A DNA stretch of 64,000 bases, taken from the NCBI GenBank assembly GCA_023078555.1, contig CM041196.1, positions 3,720,001-3,784,000 on the forward strand, read 5' to 3'. Under the pieces are notes generated by a model. It saw nothing but the letters and a program-made list of their open reading frames with translations. It was not told the DNA's origin and did not search any database. The DNA is from Ulva prolifera. Its lineage: Eukaryota; Chlorophyta; Ulvophyceae; Ulvales; Ulvaceae. Made by a program: the position numbers and the translations under genes. Of the stretch, positions 1 through 34,518 are shown in pieces (the stretch's first letter is position 1; each line of letters starts with the position of its first letter).

Positions 1-649
1 CGCGTTGGTGCGGCTCCCGGTGGCGTCCGCACCCGAGCGACGTGAATGCGGCGCGGCCTCGCTGGCCAAGCGTGTGCGCACCGCACGGGCGTGGTCGCTG
101 AACCCCGCTCGACGGCGGCCTGTGGCGCACGCGACGCCGACGCGTGTCGTCGTCGCCGGTGGCGACGGAGGGCCCGACGTGGTTGTCCGCCAATCGGAGT
201 ACGGCGTGGCGTGGTGCGAGGGCCTCCCCCCCGTCGACGGCGCCAGGCCTGCGAGCGGAGGCGGAGACGGCCAGTTGGTCGGCGGCGGCGGCGTCACGGC
301 CGGCATGCGTGCGGCCGCGGCGATCGTGAGGTGCGTCCAGGGCGTGATGCGGCGTACGCTCGCGCCGCCGCTGGCGGGAGGGCGGCCTGCGTGCATGCGT
401 GAGGTCGCGGCGTGGGGCGACGTTCTGCATTCAGCGTCTGGCGCTGTGCGTCGCGAGCGGGCGGCCGTCGAGTCGCGGCGGGCGGAGGCTGCTGCGGCGG
501 CGTCGAGGGCGCGGGGTTCGGGAGGCGGCGATGGTGGCCGCCGTGGCTCCGGGGGGGCCGTCATCCTGCCGTGGCATTGCGGCTGGAGTGCACGCGAGGA
601 GGCGGTGGTGGTGGGCGCGGACGGGGCGGGAGGGGGCGGGGTGCAGGGC
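1..649. other. GC-rich sequence upstream of copy A; no gene supported
   Basis: The frame of exon 1 of copy A stays open upstream to the window edge, but the composition is simple GC-rich sequence. Similarity to the other N-terminal copy (31458 onward) begins only around the Met at 650. A GTGCAG sits just before that Met (641-646), so an upstream non-coding exon is possible. I see no recognisable promoter element. Confidence 0.4.
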
Positions 650-2853
650 ATGGAGAGGCTGCGCGGAGGAGGAGACGCGGGAGCGCCCCATGGCTGGCAG
701 CGGGAGGTCTGTGAGGGGGACTCCAATGAGCCTGACGAGGGGCAGCCACGGACGCCGCCGGCGCACGCGGATCGCGCGAGCGAAGCCTTGACCGCAATGT
801 CGAGCGAGGCCCTCCGGAGAGAGCTGCAGCGCAGGTCTGGCGCGGGTGGCGAAGGCGCCAGCGACACGCATGTCGGCGTGGCCGCTGCGGCGCCGGGAGG
901 GCGCGGGGGGGCAGAGGTGGCGATGTCAGGGTGGCATTCCATGGGGGAGCCGTGGGTACAGGGGACGCCGGCGTTCCAGATGGGGGGGGGCGGCCTCAGC
1001 GGCGTGCCGCGCGTGGTGGGCCAGCCTGCCCCAGTGCACGCGTACGGCTCCGTGAGCCACGTGTACGGCGTCCCGCACGCCCCCGACGCCGCGGTCGGCG
1101 TGCCGCTCGACGGCCCGTGGGGGCACGGCGGTGGCATCCCGACGGCTGGCGCTGGCAGCGTGACAGGTGGGTGTCACCCTCCGCCCCCTGGTGTGAGCTT
1201 CTATCCGCCAGCATACCAGATCCCGGGGTTCGCCTACACGGCCCATCCGGCGATGTCGGGGGCCCCGTACGGTGGGTCGCCGCACCCACTCGTCCGCCAC
1301 GCCGCGATGCCCGGACCTGCCCCGCCCACAGTTTCTGTTGGAACCCCGTTCCGGGAGGTGCACGCGGCGGCGCCACTCCCTGGACGAGGGGGCGCAGCCG
1401 CGACACGGGGCGACAGTGCGAGCCGTTGGGTACGCCGGGCGGCCGATACGCCCGCCATCGAGTCCAGGGAGGCTTTTGTGGGCCACTTGTCGGAGGGCGG
1501 CTGTGCCGGGGAGGCGGGCGGGGTGGGGTCGCGGTCGGCGGGCGGCGCGCGCGACGGCGGCGGTGGCGCGCGGGGCCACCCGGCCCCAGAACCGGGGGCA
1601 CCTGCGTCCACAGGGCCTGGCACGCCTGCGCAGCCCGCGGTTCACAGCCCGCGGCGTACAGACGGTGGTGCACGCGGTGACGGCGACTCGGGCGACTGTG
1701 AGGTCTTGAGCGTGTCGAGCGGCACGCCCGACGGACACTGCGGAGGTGACGCGGCGGCGGACAGCGCCGGTGGCGTGCAGGGGCTCGCCTCCGCGGCGGC
1801 GGGCTGTCGCGCTGACGTTGCCGGCGGAGCCGTGCGCGACGCGGCACAAGGCGGCACAGCGCGGCGGCTGCCCCCCACCGGTGGCCAACGGGCCACGCTC
1901 GCGACACGCGGACTCACGGGACAGGAGCTCGGCAGCATCCTCGGCTGCAACATGCGGATGTCCAGCAGCAAAGGGGCGTTCGTGCGCCGGAGGGATCCCG
2001 CGAAGCGGGCGGCGCTGAAAGCGGACTTGAAATTGCGCAAGGGGAAGCGCCGGCGGAGTGAGGAGGGCCCTTCGGGGACCGTGGCGGCGGCGGCGGCTGC
2101 TGCCGGGCTGGAAGCCGCGGCGTGCGCGGCGACAGAGCGGGAACCCGTGGCATCGCCGCGCGGCTGCGCGGCCGCGACGACTCCGGGAGGCACACGGCAG
2201 GCTGCCCGCGGGCAGAAGAGGCCGGCGATGGCGGCCGTGACGAGAGGGCACACCAAGGCGGCGCGTCTTCGTAGCCTCGAGAGCGGCGGGGCGGCGGAGG
2301 CCGCGGGCGACGCGGTCCGCCGTGGCTCTGGTGTGGCGGATGCGCCCATGACGCGTCCAGCCGTCGCCGCCGCGGTCCAGGCGGGCGCGCACGGCTGCGC
2401 CAAGAGCCGTGCCGTCGCCCTCTCCAGGTCTGTCCTGGCTGCGTCCGACGATGACGCGCCTGCAGAGGCGTCACGCGACCGGGTGCGCCGCGGCGGCTCG
2501 ACGGTGGCCGCGGTCGACGTGTTCGCGTCGCTTCCAGAGGGCCCGGCCGCACGAGGAGGCGCTGTGGCCATCACAGGCCACGCTGCCAGCGGCGCACCTG
2601 GAGCGGCCATCACGGAGCGCCGTCGGGCGGCACCTGTGCCGGTGGGCGCCGCACGGCGGCCGTCTGCCGCAGCCGTGCCGGCGGGGGGAGGAGCGGCCGA
2701 AGAGGCGGAGGACGACACGACCGCGGCTGCAGCGTGGCACCGCGCGATTGGAGAGGACGACCGCGGCAGCGAGCCGGGCTGCGAGGACGGCGACATCTCG
2801 CCCGACATGCGTTCTCTGCTCGCTCTGCTGAAGACCCCGGCGACCTTCACGCA
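650..2853 (+). CDS. Copy A exon 1: low-complexity Gly/Ala/Pro N-terminal region
   Basis: About 734 codons, rich in Gly, Ala, Pro, Arg, with no recognisable fold. Three short parts are shared with copy B: the first 80 residues, a basic/helical patch (LTGQELGSIL here, LTAEELGKVL in B) and an acidic end (EDDRGSEPGCEDGDISPDM) just before the splice junction. The exon ends ..ACG CA|gtgcgtcc (phase 2) and joins exon 2 at gtgcag|G ATT GCA. The acidic end also aligns with exon 1 of the divergent minus-strand copy F, so this piece is probably constrained. The region is likely disordered. Confidence 0.6.
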
Positions 2854-3384
2854 GTGCGTCCCTCGAGGGGCTGTGTGCGGTGCCATGTGTAGAGCGTATG
2901 GTCTGGTATACAATATGATAGTATGTCGCCTAGGCACAGTGTTGCGGTGCTGTGGTACAGCGCGCGCGTCGCCGGACCGCAACGGAAGCTCGGGTATCCT
3001 TTTACAGCAACCCTGTATCCCGCTCGTGGGTGTACCAGGGCAGGCCCCTCCTGTGGACAATGCCAGCCATGCTAGCATGGGAGCGGCTCCACCGACGTCC
3101 ACTGTGAGACCGGGTGCGTGTACACAGGTCGTCGCTCATATGCCACTCTCAGTTACAAGCGTCCATGCTCATGCACGGTCGCTTACGCCGGCTCTTATTT
3201 ACCCCCCCCATTTTCCGCACCTATATGAGCGGAACCTTTCGATACGAGCGAGTTTGTTTTTCTTTTCACGAGATGCTTAACTTTTGGGTTGCATGAGAGT
3301 GGAGTGCATTGGCGTATGGAAGGTGGTCTGTCCAACCAACTGCGCATGCACGGAGTCAGGTCTGGAGCGCGCGCCCGTGTGCAG

Positions 3385-5669
3385 GATTGCAAAAGGCCTG
3401 GCGGAAGGAGCCCAGACAGCCGATGCGGAGGAGGCGGCCGCCCGAGGGAGCAACACCCTGACGCGCGCCTCCAGGCAGCCCACGATCGACTGGGTCGACA
3501 AGGACGCGCAGTGGTGGAGGGGGTGCAGCAAGGCGACGTTGCAGTCCGCCCGCCACGAGTGTGCTAAGCTGTTTGTGCTGTTTGTCCGGGCGTTCGTCGC
3601 CGTCGTGGTGTCGCAGCAGCGGGGCTCGGGCAATCAGGCGTTCAACACGGCCATCCTCGGCGAGTGGCGGGCGGCGCGTGAAGCGGCCGAGCCAGGCCCC
3701 GGCGAGACCGTCGCGCATGTCCCGATGAGTGCCGTCATCTACAGCTTCAGGCTCGCGGGCAGCAAGGTGTTCCTGATGACACTGCAGACCCTGGCCTGGG
3801 CTGGCCACATCGGGTGCTACTCGACGCTGCACGGGTACCGCCTCGCCGTGCAGCGCTCTGTGGACGCGTACTTCTCATTCCGGGCGGGAGATGGACAGGC
3901 GGAGGGAGAGGCGGTGCGGACCAGCGACTTTGTACGATCGAGCCGAGTGTATGTATATAGAGTGTATGTATTATATAGCGCATATATTATATCCATACTG
4001 ATACAGTAAGTGCGGTGGGGCGTCCTGCCGCATGCACCAGTACGGCACGTGACGTCCGCTTGCCGACTGCAGGACGCCCGACGCCGGTGCCAGCTCTTCT
4101 CACAGTATCGCTCTGTGGTGAACGAGTTCGTGGCCCACCTCAAGGCGGACGCAGCCTTCATCAGCGTCAAGCCGACCCCGCTGAAGCAGGGGGAGATGAT
4201 CGCCATCGCGGAGGAAGCGTCGTCGGGCGCGACGACGCCGCTGTACGGCCGGGTGGCCGCGTTCCTGCGCAACCTCAGCGGCGTGCGGAACCCCTCGGTG
4301 TCGGCGTGGCAGTGGCGCCACGTGACGTTTGTCGTCGTCGTCGTCGCCCGTGAGCGAGGCGACGGGAGTGTCGCAGAGGAGGTGCGGACAGCCGGCGCCT
4401 GGATGCGGTGCCCGTGCCCGCACAGGGCCCTCGTTGCGTTCGGCTTGACAGCGTGCTTCACGTGGGGCACGCCTAGGGCGGCTGATTACATTCTCCATGT
4501 CTCATATTAACACGTAATCACAAAGCATAACTACACTGTCAATTATCTGAAAAATGTTGCAGACTCGGGGTGTATTTTCCCCATAAATTACAAGGATATT
4601 TTTTTAAATTACAAGGATAGTCCGCAGGTGGACCATTTACAATCCCATTGATTACCATTTACAATGCATTGATTGATTGTACACTGTAATCGCCAGACAA
4701 AATTAATGATAACTGGTCTTGAGTTCATCACATGTCTTCAAATCAACATTCAATTACGACAGCATAATTCTCTGTAATTTGTGCTTCAATCCGTGTTGAA
4801 TTGTAATCCAACAGCCCTAGGCGAGGCGACCCCGGGGACCGCCGCCGTCGGCATGTGTCGCCTGTGTGCCCCCGCACCTCGGCATGTGTCGCCTGGTGCC
4901 CCCACACCCCGCCGGCACCTCGTCAATCGCCGACCGTGCAGGTGGGCTTCGGCATCGTGGTGCACCTGCAGCACGACAAGGCCCCGAACAAGTTCGGGGC
5001 GAAGGTCATCGCGATGAACCCGACGGGCAACCTCGTGACGTGCGGCGAGAGGGTCGACCTGAGCGAAGCGGAGGAGGACCACCGGCAGGATGTCGACGTA
5101 GCGAGCGTCGGGTGCCAGCTGCTCAGCATGGCGATGCATCAGGGCCTCCTGCTGCCCGAGGATCTGGAGCACCTCCCTGTGGGCACGGCGTTCACCCTGC
5201 CGGCGCTGATCGCGAAGCGCCGCGGGGCCGGAGCTGCTGCGCTGGCGAAGCGTTCGGAAGACATGTGCGCCGCCCGGAGCGCGTGTGTGTTGTGTGCGCA
5301 CGGCTGATTTCCGGCACCTGCCACGTAGCGAGCACTGACATGCGTGGCTGCCGAGTGCGGACGCGTGTCGCCACGTGCAGGTTCGTGTTCTGCCGTTGGC
5401 ACGGCATGGTGCCGCTGCGGTGCGTGCCGTCGTCGAGCTGGGCCGTCAGCGTGCTCATCGCTCGGTACTGTGCGGGGACCGGCGCCAAGATGAACGCACG
5501 GGACATGCGTGCGGGGTTCGCGTTCATGTTCATCACGGACAGCACCCTGCGCGGGCGGGAGCACAACAAGCTGGAGCTTGCGCTCAGGGGGCAGTGGTGC
5601 CCGACCGCAAAGACGGCCGAGACCCAGTATCTCCACCAGGGCCACTACAACGCGACCGTGGCGCATCGA
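3385..5669 (+). CDS. Copy A exons 2-5: tyrosine-recombinase-like core
   Basis: Exons 3385-3913, 4073-4381, 4942-5264 and 5381-5669 encode residues about 735-1218 of the reconstructed protein. Exon 2 and early exon 3 are mainly helical and would fit the core-binding domain. Exon 3 has the box-I pattern L.G-V-R-N-P-S-V-S-A-W-Q-W-R-H-V-T-F with Arg about residue 983. Exon 4 opens GFGIVVHLQHDKAPNKFGAKV, like the beta-hairpin Lys region (Lys about 1027 or 1031). Exon 5 has R-D-M-R-A-G (Arg about 1165), G-Q-W (Trp about 1194) and E-T-Q-Y-L-H-Q-G (Tyr about 1205). Order and spacing match integrase/Crypton-type recombinases, but the usual His three residues before the second Arg is Arg here. All four exons are open. 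I infer strand cleavage and exchange through the Tyr; a degenerate, inactive descendant is the alternative. Confidence 0.62.
4476..4817. mobile_element. AT-rich short TIR element in intron 3 of copy A
   Basis: A 342 bp AT-rich block in otherwise GC-rich sequence. The left end GGGCGGCTGATTACATT and the inverted right end GGGCTGTTGGATTACAATT form imperfect terminal inverted repeats, flanked by TA on both sides, consistent with a TA target duplication. It carries no coding capacity. Related copies lie at 36781-37693 and, as a remnant, 50549-50659. It appears to be a non-autonomous DNA element; superfamily not assigned. Confidence 0.6.
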
Positions 5670-5862
5670 GTGCGTGGCCTGTCTCGTGTGTCTTTGCGGG
5701 GACCCGCTGTGCCCAATGCTTGAACGTGCCTCCGCGGCTGTGTGTGTCGCCGCATGTGTCGCTGTCACCCTGAGGGCGCCGTGGCTGCCGCCCTGCTCTG
5801 CAGCGTCCCGGCGACTTCCCGGTCGCGGGGTGAACGGTGACGGGGGATGGCGTGCTGTGCAG

Positions 5863-7348
5863 CAAGTTCAGAGTGGAGGCGGGCGCTTTGTGGACATGCA
5901 CGGCCTTCAGAGGGTGGCGGCGCAGGCGGCTCAGATGAAGCGCGAAGGCAGCCGATATCACGGCAGCCTGTACTTGTGTGCAGCCGCTGGCAAGGCGTAC
6001 CTCGACTCGCCCGACGGGCAGGCGGCGCTGGCGGAGGCGGACGCCGCTTCGCACGCGCTGTGGGACGCGGCATGCACGCGCCACCGCGAGTCGGAGTTCG
6101 GCGGCCTAAAAGAGTACGGGTGGGCCAAGATCCGCGCGCTGTTCACCACGAATCGCCCCGGACCGCTGCACCTGTGGGGCCGGCCCGAGCACGTCCCACG
6201 CGAGGAAGGTACGCAGTAGGCTCCGCGCTGCGGTGTGCTCGACGGTGCAAGTGTTGCCGTTGCACACGCCACGAGCGGTGTCGGCGCGTCACGCGTGGCT
6301 GCGGGGGCCCCCGGGATGTGTTGCATTCATGCCGTCCATGCATCGCACCGGCTCCGTGCAGGCGCGTTGAGGGACTTCTGCGTGATGCTCGGGTCGATTG
6401 GGGGCCGGCAGAGTGTGTGGCTGAAGGCGTTGGACCTCGGGGACGATCGAGACCTTCTGTCGCTGATGCGGTCGGTCGACGATCGCACGGCGGAGGCCGT
6501 TGCTCTGCACACGGAGGTGCAGGCCGACCTTGTGACGGCCATGTGCAAGGTCGAGGAGGCGCAGCAGGCGGGCGACGTCATCGTGAGCCCAGGCGGCCAG
6601 CTCCTGCACGAGTCGCCGTCGCGGGAGCTCGAGACGGCGCAGGCTATGCTGGGCGTCGCGGAGAGCAAGGTCCTCGCCATCGCGGACGAGGACCGGCAGA
6701 AGGTGGTGGCGCAAGCGCGGCGCGCGGTGCAAGATCGGTGGGCCGCACAGCGGCGAGAAGTCGAGCTGCGTACGGGGGACTACACGTTCAAGGTACGCTG
6801 TGTGGGACCAGGCGATGCGTGTGCTCCAAGCCTCCACCACCTCGATGATGTTGCATTGCCCGATGCCGATGTCCCTTGCTCTCTGCTGAATGACACGCTG
6901 CACCACCTGGTGCACTACCTGAGACCGGAACACACCGCATCAGCGCCCCTGCTCCCCCATCTCTACTGCCCCTGGTTGATTGATCGCTGCATCCCCTGGT
7001 GTACTGCCTCAGACCAGGGCACGCCCAGGCGGTGCGTGTGCGAGCGGGGACGCGGGCGGGCGCCGGCGGTAGTGGGGGGCGGGGGGCGGCGATGCGCCCG
7101 GCGTTGCTGACGGTACGTGGTCGTGCTCGCAGGCCACGCGCACCGGAGTGAACGCCCTGCTCTCGTACCGCAAGGCCTTCCTCCAGCGGCAGGCGGAGTC
7201 TACGGGCCTCATGCCGGAGGGCCGGGCCGCGCTGCACATGCAGGACCACGCCCGCTCGGCGGGGGGGGGGCGGTGTTCGACCGCCTCATGGCCGCGCTCG
7301 TCGAGGACGACGGGCGCATGCTGGCGATCCTGAAGGTCCTCACTGGAG
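5863..7348 (+). CDS. Copy A exons 6-8: helical middle region with a frameshift in exon 8
   Basis: Exons 5863-6208, 6362-6792 and 7133-7348. Exon 6 ends with a strongly conserved stretch (LKEYGWAKIRALF, then GPLHLWGRPEHVP). Exon 7 (431 nt in every copy) is Ala/Glu/Arg-rich and likely helical or coiled coil. Exon 8 encodes a conserved block beginning ATRTGVNALLSYRKAFLQRQ. Exon 8 is 216 nt here but 214 nt in copies B, D and F; the two extra bases are in the G10 run at about 7261-7270 and shift the frame. Homopolymer length is also a common sequencing error, so this lesion needs raw-read support. I recognise no named domain in these exons. Confidence 0.6.
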
Positions 7349-7639
7349 GTGCGAATCCATGCATGCCGTGTTTGCCGTACGTAACTGGGGTGCAAAATGC
7401 ATGGGGCGCTGCTGTGCTCGGGACCCGCCTGATACGTTGCCAGGGCGCTGCGCACGCAAGTGATGGATGCGACCGAGGCTCCCGCCCGACATGCTGCACG
7501 CACGCAGCAGTCCTTCTCGCGGGGTGCACGCCCCGCCGTGACTATAGGCGTGTTGGCATGTGCCGAGGCGATGGGGCGCCGCGGCGCGGCGGCGGACGCG
7601 CGGGTACGGGGTCTCACGCGCGCGGTGGTGCATGTGCAG

Positions 7640-8157
7640 ACGCTGCGGCCCCTCCGGTGCTGCTGCCTGCGTACAAGACCGTCCTGGCGCGTGGGGAGGG
7701 GCACGTCGGCCGCGGCACTTGCGTTGCCCTCGCCAAGGTGGGTGGCGTGTTCAAGCACTGCGGACTGCCGGTGGGGCAGCGCGGGCGTGGGGCTCAGGCC
7801 TGCGACGGCCACCTGCGCGCCCCGACCATCATGGAAGCGGAACCAGCGCGGGGTGGCGGCGTGGTGTACACGCGCTTCTGCGTCTCGTGCGACTCCCGGC
7901 AGCCGCTCGAGAACTTTGAAGGCTTCCTCGTCCACTGCAAGAAGCACCCGAAGGGGCGCAGCTCGCGGGGACGCGCTCCTAAGGTGCCCGCGGCGGTCGA
8001 CGGGGAGGAGCTGCTGAGGCGCGTGCGGCCGGTGTGCGAAACGCTGGTGGCGCTCGAGACACCCGGTGATGTGCGCAGGGCACTGGTGACATGCGACGTG
8101 CGCACGTGCGAGTTCAACGTCGCCCGTGGCTCCGGCTTCTGCGAGGACCATGCCAAG
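7640..8157 (+). CDS. Copy A exon 9: first SBP-box-like zinc module and half of a second
   Basis: The 518 nt exon encodes C..(GTCVALAKVGG)..HCGLP..ACDGHLRAP..FCVSC..VHCKKH, a Cys/His order like the SBP box: a C..C..C-x2-H site followed by FC-x2-C..C-x2-H. Its last part, TCDVRTC..GFCEDHAK, is again a C-x4-C..C-x2-H half-module, whose second half (CICTNC..CCMC) is encoded after the intron in exon 10. Exon length is identical (518 nt) in copies B and F. The likely role is zinc-stabilised DNA binding, by analogy with SBP proteins; that is inference. Confidence 0.6.
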
Positions 8158-8988
8158 GTGTGCCTTCGCCGAGCAAACATCCGTAATGACAGATGTAGGA
8201 TCATGTGGTGTCCGTGTTTGGTGCATGCGTGTGTACTGTGCAGTCGTCACCACATGAAGCACTTGGTCCATTGGCTGATCGGCTGTGGCCAGCAGGCCAC
8301 CTAGGGGAAGCGAGTACGTGTGGTCATGTCCTTCAGCCGGGCCACACGTGGCCTTGCTGAAGCGGCATGCCAGGCTGTCTTTCCCTACGCAGCGCTGCTC
8401 ACTGCACTACCTTGATGCCTTGCTGCGTGTGGCCAACAGGCCACGGACGTCGAGCGTGTGCGTGACACACCCCACCCTTCAGCATGGCCACACTCGGTCG
8501 TGCTGAAGCCGTGCGCCGCCGCTGTTCACAGCATCACACTGCAACCTCTCTGTTCTGCACTCAGCCCGCCCTGGCATGCCGGTGGTAGAGGCTGGATGAA
8601 AAACGGTGGTGAACTGCGATTGAATGATGTGACTTCCGCTCCTGGCATGCCATATCTGTGGCGTACCCGGGCAACATCTGCACCCATGTGCCGCATTGTG
8701 AACACACAAGTATTGCGAAAGCCCTCCTGTCGTTGCAGTAGAAGCGCTCGATCCACAGTATGCCACAGCTGGCAAGACACCGCAACAAGCTCACAGCACA
8801 CTGCAATGTGAAAATCACGAGCCGACGCTGCCTTCACAACCTGGCCGTGCGAAAAAACCTGTCATCCGCGCTTGCTGAATCCGCGTGCAAGTGCATCCGG
8901 GCTTCGGCACCTCTCGGACCCGGTGTCACCCGAATCCGGCATGCGTTACGGAATGAACCGACACCTGCAGCGCGTGCGGTTGGTGCAG

Positions 8989-11900
8989 GGGTTGGTGACG
9001 GACGCGCGCGGCGAGGTCAGCTGCATCTGCACAAACTGCCGTGAGTTTGTGCCCGCGGCCTACGCCAACGCGAACGCGCTCCAGTGCTGCATGTGCCTGG
9101 AATCGCGGCGCGCACGTGACGAGCGCGCCTCGGACACCCTGGCGGACGCTGTCAGCAGGATCCCGGTCCCCCCAACGGGGGCGCTTGTGAAGGTGGGGAG
9201 GCGGTTGCCGCCTGGCTACCGCCTACCGTGGCTGCCCGACGTGCCTATGGGGGACGTGTGCGAAGCGGGTCGGTGCCGCATCGTAGGCTGCGGCGTGGAG
9301 CTGCTGGAGAAGGAGCTCAGCGCGGGCGTGTGCGACAAGCACCGCCGGCAGGTGGTGTGGGACCTCAGGCCGACCGAGTGTAAGCCGCAATTCTACTGCG
9401 TCGACTGCCGCGGATGGAGGGCGGCTGATCCATGGCCCCTCGTGAAAGGCAGGGACGGCACGATGAAGCGTGACTGTCGGTGCCAGAAGCACGCTGACCG
9501 GGAGGCTGCGGCGTGGGCGGTCGGTGCCGACGACTTGATCAAGCGTCAGTCGAATGTCAGAAAAGCTATTGTTTGTTGCAGGTCAGGACGCGCAGTCCTT
9601 GTTCAGGTCAGGTCAGTACAGCCAGCATCTCATACCTGCTGCGCACAGAGGTAGAACCGAGAGATGCTTAAAGGGAAGTGCTAGTACCGTGAAACAGTAG
9701 AGAGAATGGTTACAGATCTCAGTGTGCACATGCTTATATGCACACTGAACACTCAATACTCAAAGGTTACGGCGGGAAACCCTCGCACGATCTCTCTCGC
9801 TACATCGAGACGATCCTAGCTGGCGGCTTACCCCTACACTGGATCCGCGGATCGTTCGTGCATGGGTGCACCTGTCACCACACTGTTGCCCGCAGGCTCA
9901 TGCATTGTGACACTCCCCCATAAACCCTGCTATGTCTCCACTAGCTGGAGTTTATTGCGAACTTCTAACAAAGCAGGTCCGGGCAGCACTTTGGTAAACA
10001 CATCCGCTAACTGATCAACAGTGCCCACCCATGCTACCTTAAGTTCATCCATCTGGACATATTCCCGCACTCGCAAGTGCCGCACACGAATGTGCTTGGA
10101 TCTGTCAGTGGACACAGCATTCACTGCCAAAATATTGGCACTCTTATTATCACCCCACAGAGTCGGTTTATACGGGACGAGTTTTAGGTCGAGAAGCAAC
10201 TGCTTCACCCACATTAACTCGTTGGCTGTTGCACTCATCGCGATGAGTTCAGCCTCTGTTGTATCCCCAGCCACTATACTCTGCTTCTTCGAACGCCAGA
10301 GAACACAGTTCCCATACACCCGAATAACCATACCAGACACGCTTTTCAGATCAGCAGAGTTCGCAAAATCTGCATCTGAATAAGCCTCTATCAAACACCC
10401 GTGTCCCTCAGAGCCTACAAATTTTATTCCTAAGTTCTTTGTGGACTGCAGGTATCTCAGAACATGTTGCACAGCCAACCAATGTTCCTTCAGACTACTG
10501 GACATGTGCCGGGCCAGGGCATGTGCCACATAGCTGAGGTCAGGTCGTGTCACTCCTGCAATGTACTGGATGCTTCCTACAGCACTCATGAACCTGGAAT
10601 GCTCAGCAGCACTGGCTTTCTCCAGGTCCGGGTGCTCTTTCACACTCCTCAGTTGTTGCCGCGGCACTAACGGAGTGGGAGACTTTCGACAATCAGACAT
10701 ACTATACTTTTCAAGCAGGCTATGGATTTTGTTTCGCTGTGTCATGGTGATTGTCTTGGCCTTGCGATCACGCATGATCTCAGTGCCAAGTGCCCAGGCT
10801 AGTTCACCCAGGTCTCTGCCTTCGAATTTCGTGAGGATTATGTCGACAAGTTCTTGCAGCCCCGCAGTGCCGCTGAATATGAACAAGTCGTCGACCCACA
10901 GAAAGATAAAACAAAGACCAGATGTTCTAACATACAGTCCGGGATCACTCTGTGCGCACACAAATCCCATCTCTGCTAAGACCTTTACTAAAGCTTTATG
11001 CCACTCGCGAGCAGCTTGCTTCAGGCCATACAGGGTTTTATGCAATCTCCATACACGTGCTGTCCCGTCAGTGAAGTACGGGGGCTGTTCAACGAACACT
11101 TCCTCCTCCAGCTCACCATTCAGAAAAGCACACTGTATATCTATGTGTCATATTTCTAAATCTGCCTGAGCAGCAACTGACAGCAACACACGAAGTGTCG
11201 CATAGCTCCCAACAGGTGACCAAGTCTCAAAAAAGTCTACACCCTCTACCTGAGAAAAACCCCGCGCTACGTAGCGTGCCTTGTAGCGCTGAATCTCCCC
11301 CGCAGGCCCACGCTTGATCTTGAGCACCCACTTGCCCGAGATAGCCCGTTTGCCCGCAGGCAGATAGCACAACCCGAAGGTTCCGTGCTCACCCAGTGCA
11401 TCTACCTCCTCCTGCATGGCACGCAGCCATGCATCCCTGTCCGGACCCGCAAGTCCTTCCTTCATAGAAGGCATATCAGGGTCGGAGGAGGCCTTCTGCT
11501 TCCTGGCGGCAGCTGCTCGGCGCGACCCACGACGCTGAACACTCTGCTGCTCACCAGACTCCACATGCTGAGGCTTCAGGCCTGCACAGGACACTCCACA
11601 GTCAGCCGCGGCCGATGTGTCCTGATCGCAAGCTGAAACATCAATAGCAGCTACAACTGTTTCACTACTAGCAATGTCAGAGCCCGCAGGCTCATGCATT
11701 TGTACAGCTGCTACATCCGCAGCCAATGGAACAAGGCGTCTGCGTACAAGAGGACTGATTTTAATGCGAGGCAAGGCGGCTGGAATGGCCCTCACCTCGT
11801 CAGGCAAATCAACCCCAACTGCGGCTGAGGGGTCCGGATCCTCTCCCCCTAATTCGGATCCGGTCTCCACCTCATCTGGCTCATCCTCCCAGAAGGGCCT

Positions 11901-14900
11901 CGGCGCCTCAGCTCCTCGCAAGGGCTGAGCAACTGCCCCCGCGCCAGATGCTGAGGCCGCTGCCGAATTACTCCCAGAACGGACCCGCTGAGCCTCCAGA
12001 TTCTGATGAGCCGCAGCTCTTTCATCATCTGAGACGGTGTAGTCCATGCGCTGTTCGTCATCGTCATCATAGATGCCGGGACCGTCGTCATCCTCATCCA
12101 TGTCCTCGTCAGACGCACTGACAGACATTTGGACGGGGAACGCAACTTCTACACCAGGGTCGTGCAACACAGCATTGCGCGTGACAACATACCGCGCAGT
12201 GCGAGAGGGCGTAGCGACAGGATGATACACTTCGCCGTGAACACGAGGGGGAGCAGGAACGGCAGGGTGAGCAGCAGCTCTGGACATTGCACGCGTGCGA
12301 TGCAAAGCTGTTCTGGCTATTTCCGGTGTTGCCCTAGCAGGGTCACGCCGGATAATCTCCGCAGAGGAGCCAGCTCCAAATCGTGGAGAATACACAGCCT
12401 CACTAGGCTCAGGGTTATCCTGCCGGAAAGTCATTTCCATGACAGGAACCCTACCATGACCAGGGGGGGTGTGAAGCTGGTCACGCAGACGGCGCAACAC
12501 TCCCCCGTCATAGGTGTGCTCTGCCGCGAATGGAGGCACATCAGCGTCAGTAACACGCTCACCCTCATCGTCCCCCTCGAAAGCAACCGTGTAGGAGTTC
12601 GCAAACTCCTCAGGTTCCCTCTTGTCCACAACGGCGGACGCATCGTACTTGCGTACGTGCCGGATCATCTGATCCGCAGTGCACATCACTTGACGCACAA
12701 CAAAAACCCTACCCCCAGGAACGTCCTGGGCGTACACACGCTGCATGCTGGGGCCCAGACCAGCCCCGACCCAGTATGCAGGCACACCCCGCGGGGACAA
12801 CTTCCGCAGCTTGTCATCCCTAGGGTATGCATACACTTCAACCCCCCATGGACGCTGCTGCCGCAGCAGATCTTGGAACACCTCAACGGAGGTGTCACGG
12901 AAAAAGGCCATATAAGGAATGATATCCTTATCACAAGACCGCACCAAAAACTCATCTAATTCTGTCGTCGCAAGCAACTTGTACTTGCGTTTCTCCTCAT
13001 CCCTCAACTTATCGCGCTCAGCCTTTTTCATGCGCTTACCTTTCCCCAGGCTCCGTTCAGCTTCGTCAACGTCCGCAGACGCATTGACAGCATGCTGAGC
13101 TTTCAGGCCCTTGAGGATGCTCGCCAGTTTGTCATGGTACAATGCCGACGATGGCGTGAGATTGTGACCATGGACAACGCTGGCGAGGCATTCTATCCAC
13201 AGGAACAGAGGTAGGCCGCTCGCGAGCAGCACAGCACGGAGTGACTCAAAGGCCACTCCGATCCTCCTCTCGATCATGCCATTACAGCGATGAGCGGCTG
13301 TGGGGGTCAAGCGGTGAGTGATGCCACGACGCTGGAGGTAGAGCTTTAAGGCCGCGACCATAAACTCTCCCCCTTTGTCGGTGTGTAGGATGCGCACACC
13401 CGGTTCACCTGGCTTCACCACATTCACCCGAATGCGTTCGATAATATAAGAGATCATGGCCGCAGCCTCACTCTTTTTGCGCAGACCTACCACGAAAGTA
13501 TAACGGGTAAAGGCACACATCACAAACAAAACATATTTCACACCACCAATTCCTACCGGAGAGACAGGACCAGCTAAATCGGCATGCAGTTGCTCACCAG
13601 GCCACTTGGCCTGACCCATGAGCTCACGATCATTGGCAGAGAAGTTACCCGCAGGCACCTTGCCAATTCTGCAGCCGTGACACCGATTCCCCAATGGCTC
13701 GGAATCGACATCCAAATTCAAATGACCACAAAATTCACTATTAGATTGCATGCGTTTAAGGACCCAATTTGACTGGTGAAAAGACAAGTGTGCTAGAAAA
13801 GCAGGTTCCAGCAAGTATGCATCATGCGGGACCTCAGCTCCCCCAGCATTGGGTCGCTGCAGGTCAATGGCCGCGACCGCCACATGATGCCACTGCTGTT
13901 GATCCTCAATAACTGAGGTCGGACTGCTCTGGTTAGACCAGACTACCCCACTATTGACAGGCGCACCGACGAGAATGGGTTTTGTATCTACCGCCATTTT
14001 AAAAGCAAAAACAGGATGACCGTCTACATCTAATTCCTGATACTTGACGTCATCTTCCACGCCGGTAGCCATATCGCCCAAACCAGGGACATACAACACA
14101 TTCCTACGCGTGTCTAGGAACATCTGCTCTGATCTAAGACCCATCGTGCTGAGCAGGTTGTACGGACATTCAGGGGCATAGTAAACACCAGGGATTTCCA
14201 CATCCAGTGGATGCGTGTTCCCATGCTTGTCCACATAAGCACCTAGGTTCACCTGAATGGTTCCCCTACCCATGATAGAAAGCTGCCCTGGTCCCGCGAG
14301 ATTGGCAACTTTCTGACACGGGCCGTACTCAGTGAACATTTCCCGATTTCCTACTATATGCATGTCCGACCCACTATCAACAATGATGTTCCACGGCATG
14401 GACGCGTCCGGCTGTGGGTACTTGTCAGGCATTTCAATAGTGCAAACATCTCTGGCCGCAGCCTGTTTGCGTTGGGGGCAGTTCGCACGCAAATGTCCCT
14501 TCTTCTTGCAGAAGAAACAGGTCCTGGTCTCCTCGCGAGGAGCCTGGCCAGCTGCGAGAGCAGCGACCACAGGGCCGTCACCACGGTGCTGCTTGCGCCA
14601 GCCATGACCTGGTTTGCCCGCGGGCGTACCAGACCTAGCCTGCAGCGACCGCTGTTGTTTGAGCAAATCAGCATGCTCAGTCAAACGGGCTATTATAACA
14701 TGAGGGGAGGAGTGTTGAACTTCGCCGCGCACAGCGTTGAACTCCTCTCCCACCTCTAACAGTTTCAATCGAAGCCATCGCTGGCCCACATCGGCACCTA
14801 GTGCCTCCAGTTGAGTGTAAACACTCATCACTTCACCACAATACGTCGCAACGTCCTTGTTGTGCTGTGATAACGAATTGAACCGACTCCACAACCTGTG

Positions 14901-17434
14901 GATTTCGGCTTCGGTGCTAGGTCTGTACTTGGCAGTCAAGTAGGACCATGCTTCACACAAATGTGACATGCGATAGACAGTCGTCCTATCCGCGTCAGGC
15001 AAAGACATTAGGACCTGTGTCCTCGCCCTAGCATGAACACGCTGTTCGTCCGCAGACGGTGCGTGCTGCAACAAATGATCTAATTCGAACTGACCTAACC
15101 ACAAAAAGACTTTCTGTTCGTACGCAACGAAACTTTCAGTCTTGTAATTCCAATCAGGCAGTTTCCCTTTAGTCAAATCAGGTTCGCTACGACCCCGAGA
15201 TGCGCGCAGCGCCTCGGTTAACGTCTCGAGTGATATGAGTGACTCAGTGTGACCAGGATCGTTCACAACATGAGAGGAAAAAGGCACCTGCTGACTGCTC
15301 TGCCCAGTGTGGGAAGAGGGTCGTGGCCGGACAATTCGGCCGCCCCGGAGCAACATACCCGCAGGCTGTTCTCCGTCAGGGAGCTGCTGGTCAGCATCCC
15401 TGTCGACGAGAGGCTGCTGGTCAGCATCGTCACGCCTCTCCTCGCGAGGAGAGTTGGCGTTGGAGTTGGCGTTCGAAAGAGACATCCTGCATCAGGACAG
15501 ATGGTTGTTTGTCGCGCGCAGCAACTAACCAGTGGGATTGCTCGCAAGCAAACAGGTTGAGAGAACAAGCGAACGCGTTCGCTTTTCTCAGCGCTGATCA
15601 TTAAAACAAGCTTCTCGAATTGTATCTAACAACAATATGCTACGAGAGAGCTAAATGATGCCTGCGCTTTTGACCGCAGTCTGAGCGCCGGCAGAACAGT
15701 GGAATGCCCGCCGTGTCTGCGCACAGACATTGGCCGACGGCTTTCCTGAACAAGACTATAAACAGACATAACGCTAACTTCATCGATACCATGTCAGAAA
15801 AGCTATTGTTTGTTGCAGGTCAGGACGCGCAGTCCTTGTTCAGGTCAGGTCAGTACAGCCAGCATCTCATACCTGCTGCGCACAGAGGTAGAACCGAGAG
15901 ATGCTTAAAGGGAAGTGCTAGTACCGTGAAACAGTAGAGAGAATGGTTACAGATCTCAGTGTGCACATGCTTATATGCACACTGAACACTCAATACTCAA
16001 AGGTTACGGCGGGAAACCCTCGCACGATCTCTCTCGCTACATCGAGACGATCCTAGCTGGCGGCTTACCCCTACACTGGATCCGCGGATCGTTCGTGCAT
16101 GGGTGCACCTGTCACCACACTGTTGCCCGCAGGCTCATGCATTGTGACATCGAAGACGCGCGTCGGTCACATCCGGAAGGCGCCGAACAAGGCGCTGTTT
16201 GCGGCAGACGGCCTGGCGTGGATGACGTGTGAGACGCGCGTGGCGGCGGCTGCCCACGGGCCGCAAGCCACGGCTGCAGGCGCGAAGAAGGGGAACGGCA
16301 GGCCGCGGGCGATCTCTGGCGAGGCCCTGTGCCGTGTGCTGGTGTGCGACCAGCCTGCACAGGGGAAGTTCCTCTGTCGGGAACACAAGGAGGTCGTCGT
16401 GCATGAGGAGGTCGTGCCTGATGAGTGCGCGCAGCAGCGGCTATGCGCGACGTGTAAGAAGTTTGCCAACGCGTACAGCTTCAGGCCGGACGGGCGCTGT
16501 GGGGACCGCTGCACCGCCGTCGGCAATGTTCGGCGAAGGGCGCGGGAGGACACGTCGAGGCCCGGGCAGCGGGCGGGGAAGCGTGGCAGGGGCCGGGGCG
16601 CAGGGGGGGGGAGCGACCCAGTGTATGGGAACCTGCCCTGCATCGACGGCCTCACTCATCACGACCGCTTCATCCGCGGCGTGATGGTGGGGGTCGCGTG
16701 GCCGGATGACGCGGGGACGCCGACACGCCGGGACTGCGAGCATGTCGCTGCGTTCATGAGGGTCGGCCTCCTGCACGCCGCCGCCGAGCCCCCGGGGGCC
16801 AGGTGCTGCTACGAGGGCACGCAGACGCGCTGCGAGGAGCCGTGTGCAGAGGGGGCATGCGTGTGCGACGGCCACGTCGGCGCTATCGCGGTGAGCCTCG
16901 CAGACGCGGGCCTGAAATGGATCTGCCCCTCGTGCAGGCACACCAAGCTGCTGGAGGCCCGCGGCTCGGGCGTGTGCAGGGCATGTCACGCGCAGGCAGG
17001 GGGGGCGGGCGGCTCCAGCGCAGTGGTGGATGCGCGTGCCACGGCCACAGGTGCCGCGGTTCGCCCCGTGGAGGCGGACAGGGCTGGCATCAGCGGGGCA
17101 GGCAGCAGCGCTGCGATGCTCGCTGCGGACGCGGGCGGGGAAGACGACACGGACGAGTGGGTCCACCCGGGGTGGCTGGTAACGGAGGCCGTCGGTGCGG
17201 CAGCCGAAGCGCCGGTTACGTTCAAGATCGGCGGCTCGAAGGGAGTCGGGCAGCAGGCGGTGGTGGACGAGGCGGTTCGCACGTGCGCGGGAGAGGGCTG
17301 CACGAAGCAGCTGACGGCGCAAGACGGCCACGGGGGGTACTGCTTCGTCTGCCTGATCACCGATGCCCTGCACGCCTCGCCCCTGGACCTGCTCGCGATG
17401 CTGCTCGTGCCAGGCGCTGTTGTGAAAGGCCAAG
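8989..17434 (+). CDS. Copy A exon 10 (8989-9554 + 16155-17434): zinc-module array, interrupted by the copia element
   Basis: Joined across the insertion (one TCGAA removed), the exon is 1846 nt and wholly open: ..CGT CAG TCG AA|G ACG CGC.. Zinc modules in order: CICTNC..CCMC; CRIVGC..GVCDKH..FYCVDC..CRCQKH; CRVLVC..FLCREH..RLCATC..CGDRC followed by a basic NVRRRARED; CCYEG..CVCDGH..WICPSC..CRACH; and CAGEGC..YCFVC. The third and fourth are closest to the SBP box, including the basic tail. The segment after 16990 is Ala/Gly-rich linker. The exon ends CAA G|gtgcgtcg (phase 1). The uninterrupted counterpart in copy B (45378 onward) confirms that the two halves were one exon. Confidence 0.65.
9555..9912 (-). 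repeat. 3' LTR of the copia element
   Basis: 358 bp, TGTC..GACA ends as read on the plus strand. It is identical by eye to the LTR at 15792-16149. Read on the element's strand it contains GCATATAAGCATG (about 9730-9742), a plausible TATA box. Confidence 0.93.
9930..15485 (-). CDS. gag-pol: Copia gag-pol polyprotein with one internal TGA stop
   Basis: The frame runs 15485 to 9930, about 1850 codons with a single stop. Gag N-terminus; CX2CX4HX4C zinc knuckle (CFFCKKKGHLRANC) about residue 321; aspartic protease DSGSD about 370; integrase His/Cys region near 585-615, then catalytic D (LHADLAGP), D (HTDKGGEF) and E (NGMIERRIG) at about 635, 703 and 738; a long Asp/Glu-rich linker; reverse transcriptase from about 1345 (KWVLKIKR..YKARYVARGFSQ). 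The catalytic pair is WVDD where YVDD is usual. RNase H has YSDADFA and TTEAE. The TGA at 11148-11150 falls just before the HIDIQCAFLNGE motif and both sides are in the same frame, so it is one substitution, readthrough or an error rather than a frameshift. If translated as a stop, the product lacks the polymerase active site and RNase H. Confidence 0.93.
15792..16149 (-). repeat. 5' LTR of the copia element
   Basis: 358 bp and identical by eye to 9555-9912. The adjoining leader at 15486-15791 is the only non-coding internal stretch of more than 300 bases; apart from the possible primer site I see nothing in it. Confidence 0.93.
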
Positions 17435-17504
17435 GTGCGTCGCCGCTGCTGCTGCCGCTGCTGATGCTGCAGCTGCCGCTGATGCTGCCGCTGCTGCTGC
17501 TCAG

Positions 17505-17845
17505 AGTTGCATGAATACGCGTGCCTTTCGATTTCGGTACGTTTAATATGCGTATTTCATTCTAACGTACTTTATCAGCGTATAGTACGCGCGTACGTTT
17601 CGGACTTGGGCGTTTTGAGAGAGCCTAGAGCTCTGCACTGTGGTGCACCTCTAGCCACAAGGCCAAAGGAGGTTTTTCACGTCCCTTGCATTGCATGATG
17701 AGCCTGAGTAACCTGGTCATCTAATTGACTGTTAGTATATTGTATTGTTCTCTGCAACAGTGTGCCTAAGCACAGATGACAGTGACCGGCTTGGCGCCTC
17801 GGTGACGTCGACGTACTTTATCACGAAACGTACTAATGCAACTCT
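17505..17845. repeat. Intronic repeat shared with copy E
   Basis: This AT-richer block in intron 10 of copy A begins near TTGCATGAATACGCGT and includes GAGCCTAGAGCTCTGCACTG. A clearly related sequence lies at 63396-63715, in intron 4 of copy E. It has no coding capacity. Being at different introns of two copies, it is more likely a small mobile element than ancestral intron sequence. Confidence 0.5.
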
Positions 17846-17859
17846 GCTGCTGCTGCTGC

Positions 17860-18054
<195 letters not shown>

Positions 18055-18150
18055 TGCTTCCCTGTCTCGGTGTTCTTTTTTCCTGAAAGCAGTGATCGCC
18101 CCCCCTACCGCTGTGGCAGGTGCAGCCCCTCCATCCGGTGTCGCCTGCAG

Positions 18151-19224
18151 GTGTTGTGGACGCGCTGCTCCCGGATGGCACTGTGGACTTTGGCCACATC
18201 AGCTTGCTTCCGGTGCGGGGGCACGGCTCGGATGCCCGCGTCGCTGCCTCGCACCGCAATCGGGTGCAGGACCACCTCCTCCCGCCGGAGCTCCGGCAGG
18301 AGCGGCTGGACCGTGCGCTGACGCGGCGACAGGACATCGCCGCCGGGCGCATCGTGGCCGGAGCCCCGCTGGTGGGTGTGCCGGAGGGGCCCCTCGCGGA
18401 CGCCCTGCGGAGCAGGGTCCCCCCCTCGTGGCATTGTAGACATGGTGCGATAAGTCCCCCGGAAATGCACAAGCAGCATCTGCTGAGATATGCCGCGCTG
18501 AAGCACGTGTTTTGAGATGTTGGCCTATCGGGAAAGGCGCACAGGCTTGCTGCTCTGAGGTTTCGGCTCACTCCCCCTCGTGTAGTAGAGGCTGTGTCAT
18601 GAACGCACGTGTGCAGCCGCTGCCGGCGTGGACCTCGTGGCGTGCCTCCCGACTGTCGGCCAGTGGTCACTGCTGGAGGACGTGGTGGAGGAGGGCTCGC
18701 CGGACGTGGCCCTCCGGGGGATCACAGTGACGGGGGCCCGCTTGCATGGGAAGGGCATCCGCAACAGGCCGACGCCGTCGCTCACTGACTTTGGGCCCGT
18801 CGGCCTGATATCAAAGACGATCCGAGGGGTTGAGCTGACGATGATCCGGATCGGGCACGACGAGAAGAGGTCGGCAAGCTCGACCGGGCCACAACAGCCC
18901 ACCCCACCGTCCCTCGGCATCGCCGTCGGCACGGCTGCGATCACCGTCCGAGGTTGCTCACGCGACATCACGGTGGACGCCCCGTGCGCGAGGAACGTGG
19001 ACGCACGGTGGATGCAGCTCTGCCGTGATGCCGGCGAGATGCTGGTGTGCCACGCGTTCAGCCTCCATGGCTGCGCCTGCACACGGGCGATCCGGCGCAC
19101 GCCCCTCATCCACAACAGCTCGGCTCAGCTCATGCGCAGGCTCGGGGTGCTGGAGGCGCCGGCGCTCGCGCCGCTGCTCATGATGTTCGTGGTGGGGTGC
19201 GCACAGAGCTTGCTGCCGGCAGAG
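18151..19224 (+). CDS. Copy A exons 11-12
   Basis: Exon 11 (18151-18444) encodes GVVDALLPDGTVDFGHISLL followed by a basic helical part (..HRNRVQDHLLPPELRQERL..). Exon 12 (18617-19224) starts AAAGVDLVACLP. Its later part has paired Cys (SRDITVDAPC, CRDAGEMLVCHAF, HGCACTRAIRRTP). The exon 11 donor is CAT G|gtgcga and the exon 12 acceptor gtgtgcag, both conserved in copy B (47080 and 47193). No named domain recognised. Confidence 0.55.
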
Positions 19225-19609
19225 GTGATGCGTCTTGCAGGGGGCCGTCTGGGAGATCGGGGCCCGTGCTTTCGCCACGTCCCCCACGATGGGGTGGCTC
19301 GGCAACGTCGCGCTGTCCAACGCGGAGATCGTGAAGACCGCCGAGCGCGCCGCCCAGTGGGAGGCGACCGAGCAGAACTCCGCGGCGCCGGCGCCGTCGC
19401 CGTTCCCGTCCAGGTCCATGACGATCCTCCGGCCGACGGACGGGACCCAGCACGTGAAGCAGCACCTGGACGGCGGCGACTGTATCCAGGGTTGCGCCAT
19501 CGCCTGGCTGCAGTCCGGTCCGTTCCGGGGTCGCGCGTCGGTGGAGGGCCAGTTCTTCTGGATCAGCGCTGCCGGGGTGCGGGTTCCCGTCAGGAACGGG
19601 TTGTTGCTG
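18746..19609 (+). repeat. Inverted repeat arm 1 (864 bp)
   Basis: Covers part of exon 12 and of exon 13. The reverse complement is found at 21862-22725 with the same length; the one difference I saw is in the 16 nt spacer (GTCTTGCAG here, GTCGTGCAG there). The arms are separated by about 2.25 kb. Confidence 0.9.
19241..19609 (+). pseudogene. Copy A exon 13, truncated
   Basis: It begins GAVWEIGARAFATSP in frame with exon 12 once the 16 nt at 19225-19240 are removed. It breaks at 19609 before a T12 run. The minus-strand duplicate (21556-22230) carries the rest of the exon and a stop after RSRSRRAS, giving 225 codons in all. Confidence 0.5.
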
Positions 19610-21540
19610 TCAGCGCCCTTTTTTTTTTTTGCAGCCGCCGGGTTGATTTTCGAACTTTCTCAGTGACTTAGGCTCGCGGAACATGTGTTGGTAGTGCACT
19701 GTTGTTATCGCCCGGAGTCTCTTTTGCGGCGGGCGAGACCTTCCGCTGAGGCGGCGGGGGGGCGGCGGGGGGCCGCGGGGGGTGCGGGGGGGTCCGGGGG
19801 GTGCGGCGCGCGGCGACCCGGCGCGCGGGGCAGAGCACCGGCACAGCAAGAGAGCAGGACAGAGCAGCACGCAGAGAGCAGCACACAGAGAGCAGCGCAT
19901 TGTTTGTAATGAGAGCAGCACTCTGTAGAGGAATAGGCGGAGGAACGACGGTGGTATAGGCGGCCGCGTCCACTGTTGCATGGTGGACAGGGCAACGGAG
20001 GAGTACGCATCATTGTTATAGCCGCCGCACAGTGCAAGAGAGCAGCAGAGAGCAGCACACAGAGAGCAGCGCACAGAGAGCAGCACAGAGCAGCACGCAT
20101 CCAGCGCAATGGCATGTCGCACACTGTAGAGGACCAGGCGAGCTGCATGGAGCAACACACATCAAGTGCAACAGCATCAACTATTGCATGCTGTACACAA
20201 CAACGGAGCTGCACAGAGCATCACCCGTGCAGTGCACCAGCATCCACTGTTGCATTCTGGACACGGCGACAGGCGTGATCCCTAAGCCACCGACACAACC
20301 CCCAAAGCCACAGCCGTGCATCGGGAGAAGCAGATGCGGTGCCACGACAGTGCATCGTATACACACGGAACGGGCGGCCGAATTATACGTACACGGTTGA
20401 TAATGATGAGGTCTGGGTAGGAGACCATTCGAGCCTGTGCGGCTGCACGGAGCGACGCCCGCGCACGTCACCACACCCCCAATCCGACACACACTCCGAC
20501 ACACCCATTAGTCTGTGACCTGTCAGGACAGGTAGTGTTTAGGCAGTCCGTGCATGCGTAGTCTGTTTATGAAAGGTAGTACAGCTGCCCGCACAGCCCG
20601 ACCGCGCTGCACCGACGCCCCAGCTGTAGCAGCTCACAGCTGGGGCACAAGGCCATCTCAGGCGCGAGCTCTCAGCGGTAGCAGCTCGCAGCCGAGGGCG
20701 AAGCGCCGAGGCATAGCTGCGGCAGCGACGCTGTGTCCCGTGCGGTATGATACGTCATTTTTCTGGCGTACAACAATTTCTGGGAATTGTTCGAGGGTCC
20801 TCTCTTGTACGGCGCCCCCGGGCCATGTCTTTGTGCTGTCGTGATCCCAGTCGATGTGTTGTACAGAACACACGCGCCCGCGCGTGCTGCACAGAGCAAC
20901 AGAGAGCGGCACTCTTTTGACGGGGGGGGCGGGGGGTGTGTGATCGGCGGGGGGGGGGGATTTTTTGGGCAGCGCTACGGAACAGGTACGCGGCATTGCC
21001 TCGTCATTACCATATTACATTATTCAGTCCCAGGGACCAGTCGCTACGAGGCGCGGCGAGACCTGGAGCGGGCCGTGTCTTTTGTGAGATTCAGTATCCG
21101 AGTCCGGTGTTGGGAGGGCTCAGTCGTTCATGGCCCGACGCTGAACCGACAGTTCATACAGGCGGCGGCAGCGGCCAGAGGCTTGGACAGGGCAACAGAG
21201 CGGCATAGAGTGCAAACAGTCGATGTGTTGTACAGAACACACGCGCCCGCGCGTGCTGCACAGAGCAACAGAGCGGTGAGTGTACAGAACAGTAGAGCAG
21301 CATGGACAGGGCAACAGAGCAGCATAGAGTGCAAAGAGTTGGATGTGTTGTACAGAACACACGCGCCAGCGCGTGCTGCACAGAGCAACAGAGCGGCACT
21401 CTTTTGACGGGGGTGGGGGGTGTGTGATTGGCGAGTGGCACAGGGCATCACAGCGCTACGGAACAGGTACGCGGCATTGCCTCGTCATTACCATATTACA
21501 TGTGCACAAGGACGAACAAGACATATTCAGTGAACGGGTC
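19610..21540. repeat. Mosaic of short direct repeats between the inverted arms; no gene
   Basis: Contains CAGAGAGCAGCACA-type short repeats (19850-20110); three copies of a roughly 55 bp unit starting GATGTGTTGTACAGAACACA with an ACGCGC/GCGCGT palindrome (20853, 21221, 21342); and a duplicated block TACGGAACAGGTACGCGGCATT near 20974 and 21455, each followed by GTCGCTACGAGGCGCGG (21041 and 21551). The latter piece encodes the last codons of exon 13 on the minus strand, so it is a remnant of the gene end. No reading frame here is supported. Confidence 0.7.
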
Positions 21541-22725: not shown

Positions 22726-22765
22726 TGAGGATTTCCTAACCCTCTACGTAACCTAGGGCCCCGGA

Positions 22766-28176: not shown

Positions 28177-28219
<43 letters not shown>

Positions 28220-34036: not shown

Positions 34037-34498
<462 letters not shown>

Positions 34499-34518
34499 CG
34501 ACATCGAGGTCTGTGCAG

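Follow-up and report, generated by a model that had tools for sequence, protein, structure and literature searches.

Eukaryotic mobile elements are classed by their core enzyme. DIRS and Ngaro are large eukaryotic retrotransposons which bear a tyrosine recombinase (YR). Starship captains (DUF3435) are YR-like recombinases of large elements, being themselves shorter and having their cargo encoded separately; we know of no captain that is fused to a helicase. Helitrons, the Rep-helicase elements, encode a single protein that combines a domain of strand-transfer type with a Pif1-like helicase. The comparisons at hand for YR-derived host proteins are yeast Ndc10 and the animal Crypton-derived genes. 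The SBP box consists of paired Zn sites of the pattern C-x4-C..C-x2-H, followed by C-x2-C..C.

The window analysed here, a stretch of 64,000 nucleotides of Ulva prolifera DNA, contains copies of a multi-copy gene family which predicts one giant protein composed of an N-terminal part, a YR-like domain, an SBP-like array and a Pif1-like helicase. This combination fits no element class tested here. Like Cryptons and Crypton-derived genes, for which domestication is known, the family has a eukaryotic YR-type core and no reverse transcriptase, but its predicted protein of 3.9 kaa includes a zinc array and a Pif1-like helicase, and no YR profile tried matches it. Whereas in a Crypton the YR is the sole recognisable enzyme domain, the predicted protein has the helicase besides its YR-like core; in the Crypton survey (PMC3212892) the word “helicase” is absent from the main text. 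With DIRS and Ngaro the family has in common that it is large, eukaryotic and YR-bearing, yet these possess a reverse transcriptase, of which no RVT match up to E 10 was obtained in 19 ORFs covering all 16 exons, so that a DIRS-type element was rejected. Helitrons resemble the family in that one protein has both a Pif1-like helicase and a domain of strand-transfer type; here, however, a YR-like core takes the place of the HUH Rep, and the copies form chromosome-specific clusters. As no Rep family of Pfam matched the same 19 ORFs up to E 10, a Helitron was rejected as well. Starship captains share the YR-like recombinase of a large element, whereas the present protein is longer, fused to a helicase and, in all six members of the YR alignment, devoid of a Pfam match to DUF3435 up to E 10. 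A YR joined to Pif1 or any other helicase, or to an SBP domain, was not found described in the open-licence literature searched.

The gene model refers to copy A1, which is 99% identical to copy A of the window and located on the same contig 73 kb upstream. Spliced from 16 exons, it gives a stop-free predicted protein of about 3927 amino acids, in which a long N-terminal part is followed by the YR-like core, the SBP-like zinc modules and the Pif1-like helicase. The N-terminal region (exon 1) showed no recognised domain, and the Pfam matches of exon 7 (E 0.04) and exon 8 (E 0.01), being below the cut-off, are attributed to chance. Fifteen introns are atypical of a transposase. Encoding by an endogenous large DNA virus or a virus-like element appears very improbable to us: giant proteins, recombinases and helicases do occur in such viruses, but the gene models are intron-rich, scans of viral contigs with the helicase profile and with the YR profile found no relatives, and no viral gene was recognised adjoining the copies, the neighbours having been looked at unsystematically. 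A viral origin was therefore set aside. Copy A is arranged in the window as follows.

1 to 2853, plus strand: exon 1, 3' part; N-terminal, its first part also matching the C4 copy
3385 to 3913, plus strand: exon 2, preceding the YR core
4073 to 4381, plus strand: exon 3; YR-like domain begins, box I Arg (GVRNP..W.W..VTF)
4942 to 5264, plus strand: exon 4; Lys of HDKAPNK
5381 to 5669, plus strand: exon 5; box II Arg (RDMRAG), GQW, Tyr (ETQYLH)
5863 to 7348, plus strand: exons 6-8 (5863-6208, 6362-6792, about 7133-7348), exon 8 frameshifted
7640 to 8157, plus strand: exon 9; first SBP-like zinc modules, SBP match of 20.3 bits against a cut-off of 27
8989 to 9551, plus strand: exon 10, 5' part; SBP-like modules
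9552 to 16149, minus strand: Copia-type polyprotein insertion inside exon 10, missing from A1
16150 to 17434, plus strand: exon 10, 3' part; SBP-like modules
18151 to 18411, plus strand: exon 11
18617 to 19609, plus strand: exon 12 (to about 19240; start estimated), joined to another gene's last exon (19241-19609)
21559 to 22735, minus strand: fragment A', chimeric and inverted, exon 12 followed by the other gene's last exon

Three defects break copy A: the Copia insertion, a frameshift and, at its 3' end, the fusion with another gene. The frameshift relative to A1 sits in a G homopolymer of exon 8, and fragment A' carries an 865-bp arm identical to 18746-19610. The sequence-only reading had let the gene begin near position 650; the Met found there is internal, the true start being predicted at about position -133, i.e. 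upstream of the window. Besides this upstream start it had overlooked the helicase half at the 3' end. What it took for exon 13 on the minus strand (22735-21559) turned out to be chimeric, exon 12 of the family being joined there to another gene's last exon, so that splicing copy A with this fragment, as that reading had suggested, would result in a chimeric product. Its count of at least five copies in the 64 kb, on the other hand, was correct, as A, B, C (on the minus strand), D and E all carry YR exons, and the multi-copy nature of the family was borne out by a search of the genome with YR exon 5, which yielded 58 matches, mostly in chromosome-specific clusters. The remaining features of the window are the following.

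25227 to 27938, minus strand: 3' half of copy F', exon 13 and Pif1-like helicase exons 14-16
31473 to 48874, plus strand: copy B; YR exons 34514-36298, SBP-like modules 44531-46853 (SBP PF03110 match at 44681-44872, 27.4 bits), exon 12 47181-48053 and the start of exon 13
49122 to 50531, no strand given: array of a 166-bp satellite, 8.5 copies
50760 to 55656, minus strand: copy C, exons 2-9
57649 to 61914, plus strand: copy D, exon 5 onward
62069 to 64000, plus strand: copy E, exons 2-5 with a break in exon 5, leaving the window

Within the window the helicase is matched only on the minus strand (27938-25227). The 460 bp preceding copy D (57188-57647) match part of the Copia insertion of copy A at 94%, in inverted orientation.

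In exons 3 to 5 of copy A the motif order is present as the sequence-only reading had given it. The residues R, K, R, W and Y follow each other in this order and are invariant in all six spliced subfamilies. Furthermore, R..QW..Y is kept in 29 of the 30 exon 5 loci that were fetched out of the 58, the single exception having an internal stop. The first position of box II (His/Lys of HxxR) is not conserved, being mostly R and otherwise K, S or another residue; among YRs in general this position varies. Compared with a bacterial YR profile, exon 3 aligns in the exact box I register, and none of 60 column shuffles did as well, while 20 of 60 shuffles were as good for exon 4 and 13 of 60 for exon 5. 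For the whole core, hhalign gave an alignment equalled by 2 of 100 shuffles in local mode and by 98 of 100 in global mode. A search of the genome with the PF00589 profile returned nothing at E 0.1, and the core found no YR match in Pfam, in PHROGs or among solved structures. The AlphaFold model, comprising exons 4-5 only, reached a pLDDT of 48, and Foldseek retrieved nothing with an E below 6.

The silence of Pfam and PHROGs, the shuffle-level scores of exons 4 and 5 taken alone and the outcome of the structure prediction would agree with a likeness to YRs that consists of chance short motifs. The core would then be another domain, and the protein, a helicase carrying zinc modules, might for example serve the host in replication or chromatin, or belong to an unknown element as its helicase. 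We deem this improbable, as five residues in order and at approximate spacing are retained throughout the subfamilies and exon 3 matches precisely at box I. Of the YR-type core proposed beforehand, the invariant residues, the box I match and the low dN/dS given below speak in favour, whereas the profile databases and exons 4 and 5 do not add to it; we accordingly hold the YR reading of the core with moderate confidence.

The Cys/His array which had been likened to SBP boxes was confirmed. Its modules were counted with the two-site SBP pattern given above, the first spacing being relaxed to C-x3-6-C. This led to 2, 4, 3 and 2 modules in the copies A1, C4, C5 and C6, compared with maxima of 1, 1, 2 and 1 in shuffled sequences; in none of the four copies was the count attained by any of 2000 shuffles. 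Although the paired Zn pattern is common to the array and the SBP-box domain (PF03110), the predicted protein contains an array of about five degenerate modules, which score close to the Pfam cut-off of 27 or less. Two C1 copies attained 27.9 and 27.4 bits in a PF03110 search of the genome, and the scanned ORFs 23.4 and 20.3 bits. The genome search also revealed two canonical SBP genes.

For the C-terminal helicase, the best structural matches in Foldseek are to Pif1 (SF1 RecA-like fold), RadA and Cdc6 being nearly level with it (E 3.7e-4 and 4.2e-4; TM-scores 0.3-0.4). The motifs Walker A, DEVQ, DPxQ, R and TRV are arranged in the order of the Pif1-family SF1B helicases. Motif order and structure are hence shared with that family; in contrast to it, the helicase here follows a YR-like core and zinc modules towards the C-terminus, and its Pfam matches of P-loop/SF1 type are weak. 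AAA_19 was recorded in 12 of 14 members and AAA_30 in 9 of 14, mostly weakly, and PIF1 (PF05970) is absent among the matches listed, which comprise 25 of 43 families. A scan of prokaryotic contigs with the helicase profile gave no result.

The subfamilies are largely restricted to single chromosomes, unlike reverse transcriptases (RVT_1), which served as dispersal control and are, with 150 of 452 candidates scored, spread over C1-C10. Local duplication or gene conversion therefore fits this confinement as well as transposition does. The comparisons revealed no element ends, no target-site duplications, no circles and no empty sites for the family, the homology of the C1 copies reaching the edge of the fetched flanks. 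Most of the tested exon pairs are under purifying selection (dN/dS < 0.35 in 10 of 12), intron phases are common to the copies wherever they were compared, and relatives of the 166-bp satellite were found only in the C1 and C6 clusters. Together with the chromosome-specific, non-dispersed clusters, these observations count in favour of the main rival explanation, which we nevertheless regard as rather unlikely: a domesticated, tandemly amplified host family whose YR-derived DNA-binding and remodelling protein would serve chromosome structure or repeat maintenance, e.g. in satellite-bearing regions, without transposing. Against it, the copies are many, several of those in the window are broken, and fragments of the family are also present on C1 at 12.1 Mb, on C3 and on C6. 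Moreover, all catalytic-type residues are retained, while in Crypton-derived DUF3504 domains, as described in the text of the Crypton survey, most of the tetrad has been lost (PMC3212892).

The likeliest explanation, to which we give about an even chance, is that the family is a selfish element of recombinase-helicase type that amplifies locally, or has recently descended from such an element. The zinc array would find its targets in sites repeated within the unit or its spacers, and the YR domain, by cleaving DNA and resealing it via a 3'-phosphotyrosyl link, would excise or insert the unit. The helicase would unwind the intermediate or help to re-replicate it, and copies re-entering nearby would accumulate as local arrays. 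Going further, and with somewhat less assurance, we propose that Helitrons may have a YR counterpart, a new class of DNA element in eukaryotes, whose giant protein of YR, SBP-type array and Pif1-type helicase may locally recombine and re-replicate its own unit and so generate chromosome-specific mega-arrays with linked satellites, possibly at centromere-like regions. Acting in this way, it would constitute a new route of DNA copying without a DDE- or HUH-type transposase, could explain how chromosome-specific arrays and satellites originate in algae, and would show the plant SBP DNA-binding fold recruited as a repeated targeting array. Even a domesticated family would amount to an unusual, predicted giant DNA-remodelling protein with dozens of copies under selection.

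Two places on C6 are non-colinear: at 1.78 Mb the 9 kb downstream matched nothing, and the DNA upstream is a patchy match of 74-98%.

Screening the window by tblastn with the exons of copy A detects exons of the tyrosine recombinase (YR)-like core in five copies (A, B, C, D and E), as the sequence-only reading had claimed for these 64 kb with its "at least five", as well as a 3' fragment, A'. A further 3' half of a family gene, F', is present on the minus strand, flanked on either side by complex tandem repeats with periods of 26-319 (window 22779-23280 and 28204-29390). The window occupies C1:3720001-3784000 of a genome which comprises 88.9 Mb in 44 contigs. Copy A is broken, while A1, located upstream on the same contig (within C1:3641001-3666000) and sharing 99% identity with it, is its uninterrupted relative. 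Missing from A1 is the segment at window 9552-16149, which in copy A encodes a polyprotein of the Copia type with Pfam matches to RVT_2, rve and copia gag. In addition, exon 8 of copy A is frameshifted relative to A1 and its exon 12 is joined to the last exon of a different gene. The 460 bp immediately 5' of the truncated copy D (window 57188-57647) match a stretch of the Copia insertion at 94% in inverted orientation and probably constitute a solo LTR which cut this copy.

With splice sites selected from homology, intron phase and open reading frame, we predicted a gene model of A1 which consists of 16 exons (C1:3647009-3663740) and encodes 3927 aa free of stops. Its introns start with GT in 14 of 15 cases and with GC in one, and all 15 end with AG. 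The end of exon 15 is uncertain, as four alternatives are each open (3917-3933 aa). Where compared, the phases of introns 2-4 are identical among A1, B and the copy on contig C4, as is that of intron 1 in A1 and B. The exon order recurs in the C4, C5 and C6 copies, with the first part alone of the helicase being detected in the C4 copy.

Features of the predicted A1 protein
Exon 1, about 995 aa: no recognised domain
YR-like core: box I Arg at ~1244, Lys at ~1287, RDMR at ~1423, GQW and Tyr at ~1453-1466
Residues ~1837 to 2570: Cys/His array
Residue ~3256 to C-terminus: helicase; motifs Walker A (3275), DEVQ (3370), DPQQ (~3415) and TRV (3846)

The proposed assignment of the core to the tyrosine recombinases is supported in part. 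Arg, Lys, Arg, Trp and Tyr are invariant across six subfamilies which are 36-54% identical to copy A. The box II Arg is separated from the Trp by 29 residues and the Trp from the Tyr by 11, both close to the 22-23 and 9-13 residues of known YRs. Compared with a profile of XerD and five plasmid recombinases, exon 3 aligns in the exact box I register and beats 60 of 60 column shuffles. In contrast, exons 4 and 5 alone remain at null level (20/60 and 13/60 shuffles as good, respectively). The whole core is equalled by 2 of 100 shuffles in local mode, yet by 98 of 100 in global mode, where it fails. In a further comparison, the score is barely higher than that of a control (22.7 versus 19.9). Neither a PF00589 search of the whole genome nor Pfam and PHROGs searches of the core returned a YR match, the predicted structure of exons 4-5 is a poor model, and the box II His of YRs is not conserved in the family. 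Since evidence thus exists both for and against, we refer to the core as "YR-like".

The SBP-like nature of the zinc array, likewise proposed from the sequence, is upheld by pattern counts. The strict pattern occurs twice in A1, four times in the C4, three times in the C5 and twice in the C6 copy, compared to shuffle maxima of 1, 1, 2 and 1, the observed number being reached in 0 of 2000 shuffles. By eye, the A1 array comprises about five modules and a partial one. In the genome search, two C1 copies score marginally above the Pfam SBP cut-off, and in ORF scans the scores fall under it. Elsewhere, the genome contains two canonical SBP transcription-factor exons (E 3.6e-15 and 2.1e-14), which point to the green lineage. 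A 663-aa open frame at C6:5824467-5827640, which resembles frames at three more places, matches SBP weakly (E 6e-4) and giant-family exons not at all; perhaps it is another element using the SBP fold.

Cryptons, DIRS elements, Helitrons and Starships each differ from the family in a tested feature, and searches of an open-licence paper library returned nothing relevant to the combination. Among 16 related public proteins, seven reach 92% identity or more with a locus of this genome, indicating the same or a very near organism. The other nine show 38-71% identity to the loci compared, which represent part of the genome's copies, and make it probable that other organisms carry the family as well. 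For one of these nine, P0007, identity with the C4 copy reaches 92% across the first 101 residues, whereas the best value over the full length is 72%. Pairwise dN/dS values (Nei-Gojobori) of 0.19-0.34 for the helicase exon and of 0.05-0.29 for the YR exons, except for exon 3 of the A-C4 pair (0.54) and one pair with saturated dS, indicate that the family proteins are maintained.

Genome-wide, as lower bounds, we obtained at least 58 matches to exon 5 on C1, C2, C4, C5, C6 and small contigs (these 58 representing at most 57 copies, as copy E is split), at least 61 to exon 4 of the C6 subfamily and at least 39 to the helicase, C3 included. Subfamilies are mostly restricted to single chromosomes, while reverse transcriptases, used as a control, spread over C1-C10 (150 of 452 candidates scored). 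Copy spacings recur on C2 (28-29 kb) and C15 (18 kb), and the remaining spacings vary. In the C6 subfamily, exon 4 sequences from places 5.8 Mb apart share 99-100% identity, but these places are not colinear, the match being patchy upstream and absent from the 9 kb downstream of one of them. Fragments closely similar to the A1 helicase are located at 12.1 Mb of C1 as well as on C3 and C6, which implies that some movement or recombination between places occurred. Local multiplication, and the presence in a single maintained protein of a helicase, an array that would recognise sequence and a core of the strand-exchange type, suggest that self-directed recombination with replication may be at work. 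The main rival, a domesticated host role, accounts for the clusters about equally well. Neither element ends nor target duplications, circles or activity were observed, and the C1 copies are homologous up to the edge of the stretches compared.

A second gene, with open frames at C1:3712567-3717610 (minus strand), lies head-to-head upstream of copy A; three pieces of it gave nothing above the Pfam cut-off. Its last exon recurs at window 21559-22230, with relatives beside other C1 copies, in the C2 and C6 clusters and dispersed on C1, C2, C3, C4 and C8. Upstream of A1, C1:3641001-3642862 contains three tandem copies of a ~617-bp repeat, and DNA matching this region is also found upstream of A and of A2, another C1 copy. 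Copy C is adjoined by a 166-bp satellite (window 49122-50531) with kin at C6:7636215-7637269; within this search, its relatives (77 and 38 matches by two monomers) are confined to the C1 and C6 clusters. This satellite, near nucleosome length, is 73-83% identical between C1 and C6 and runs mostly antisense to the adjoining family genes.
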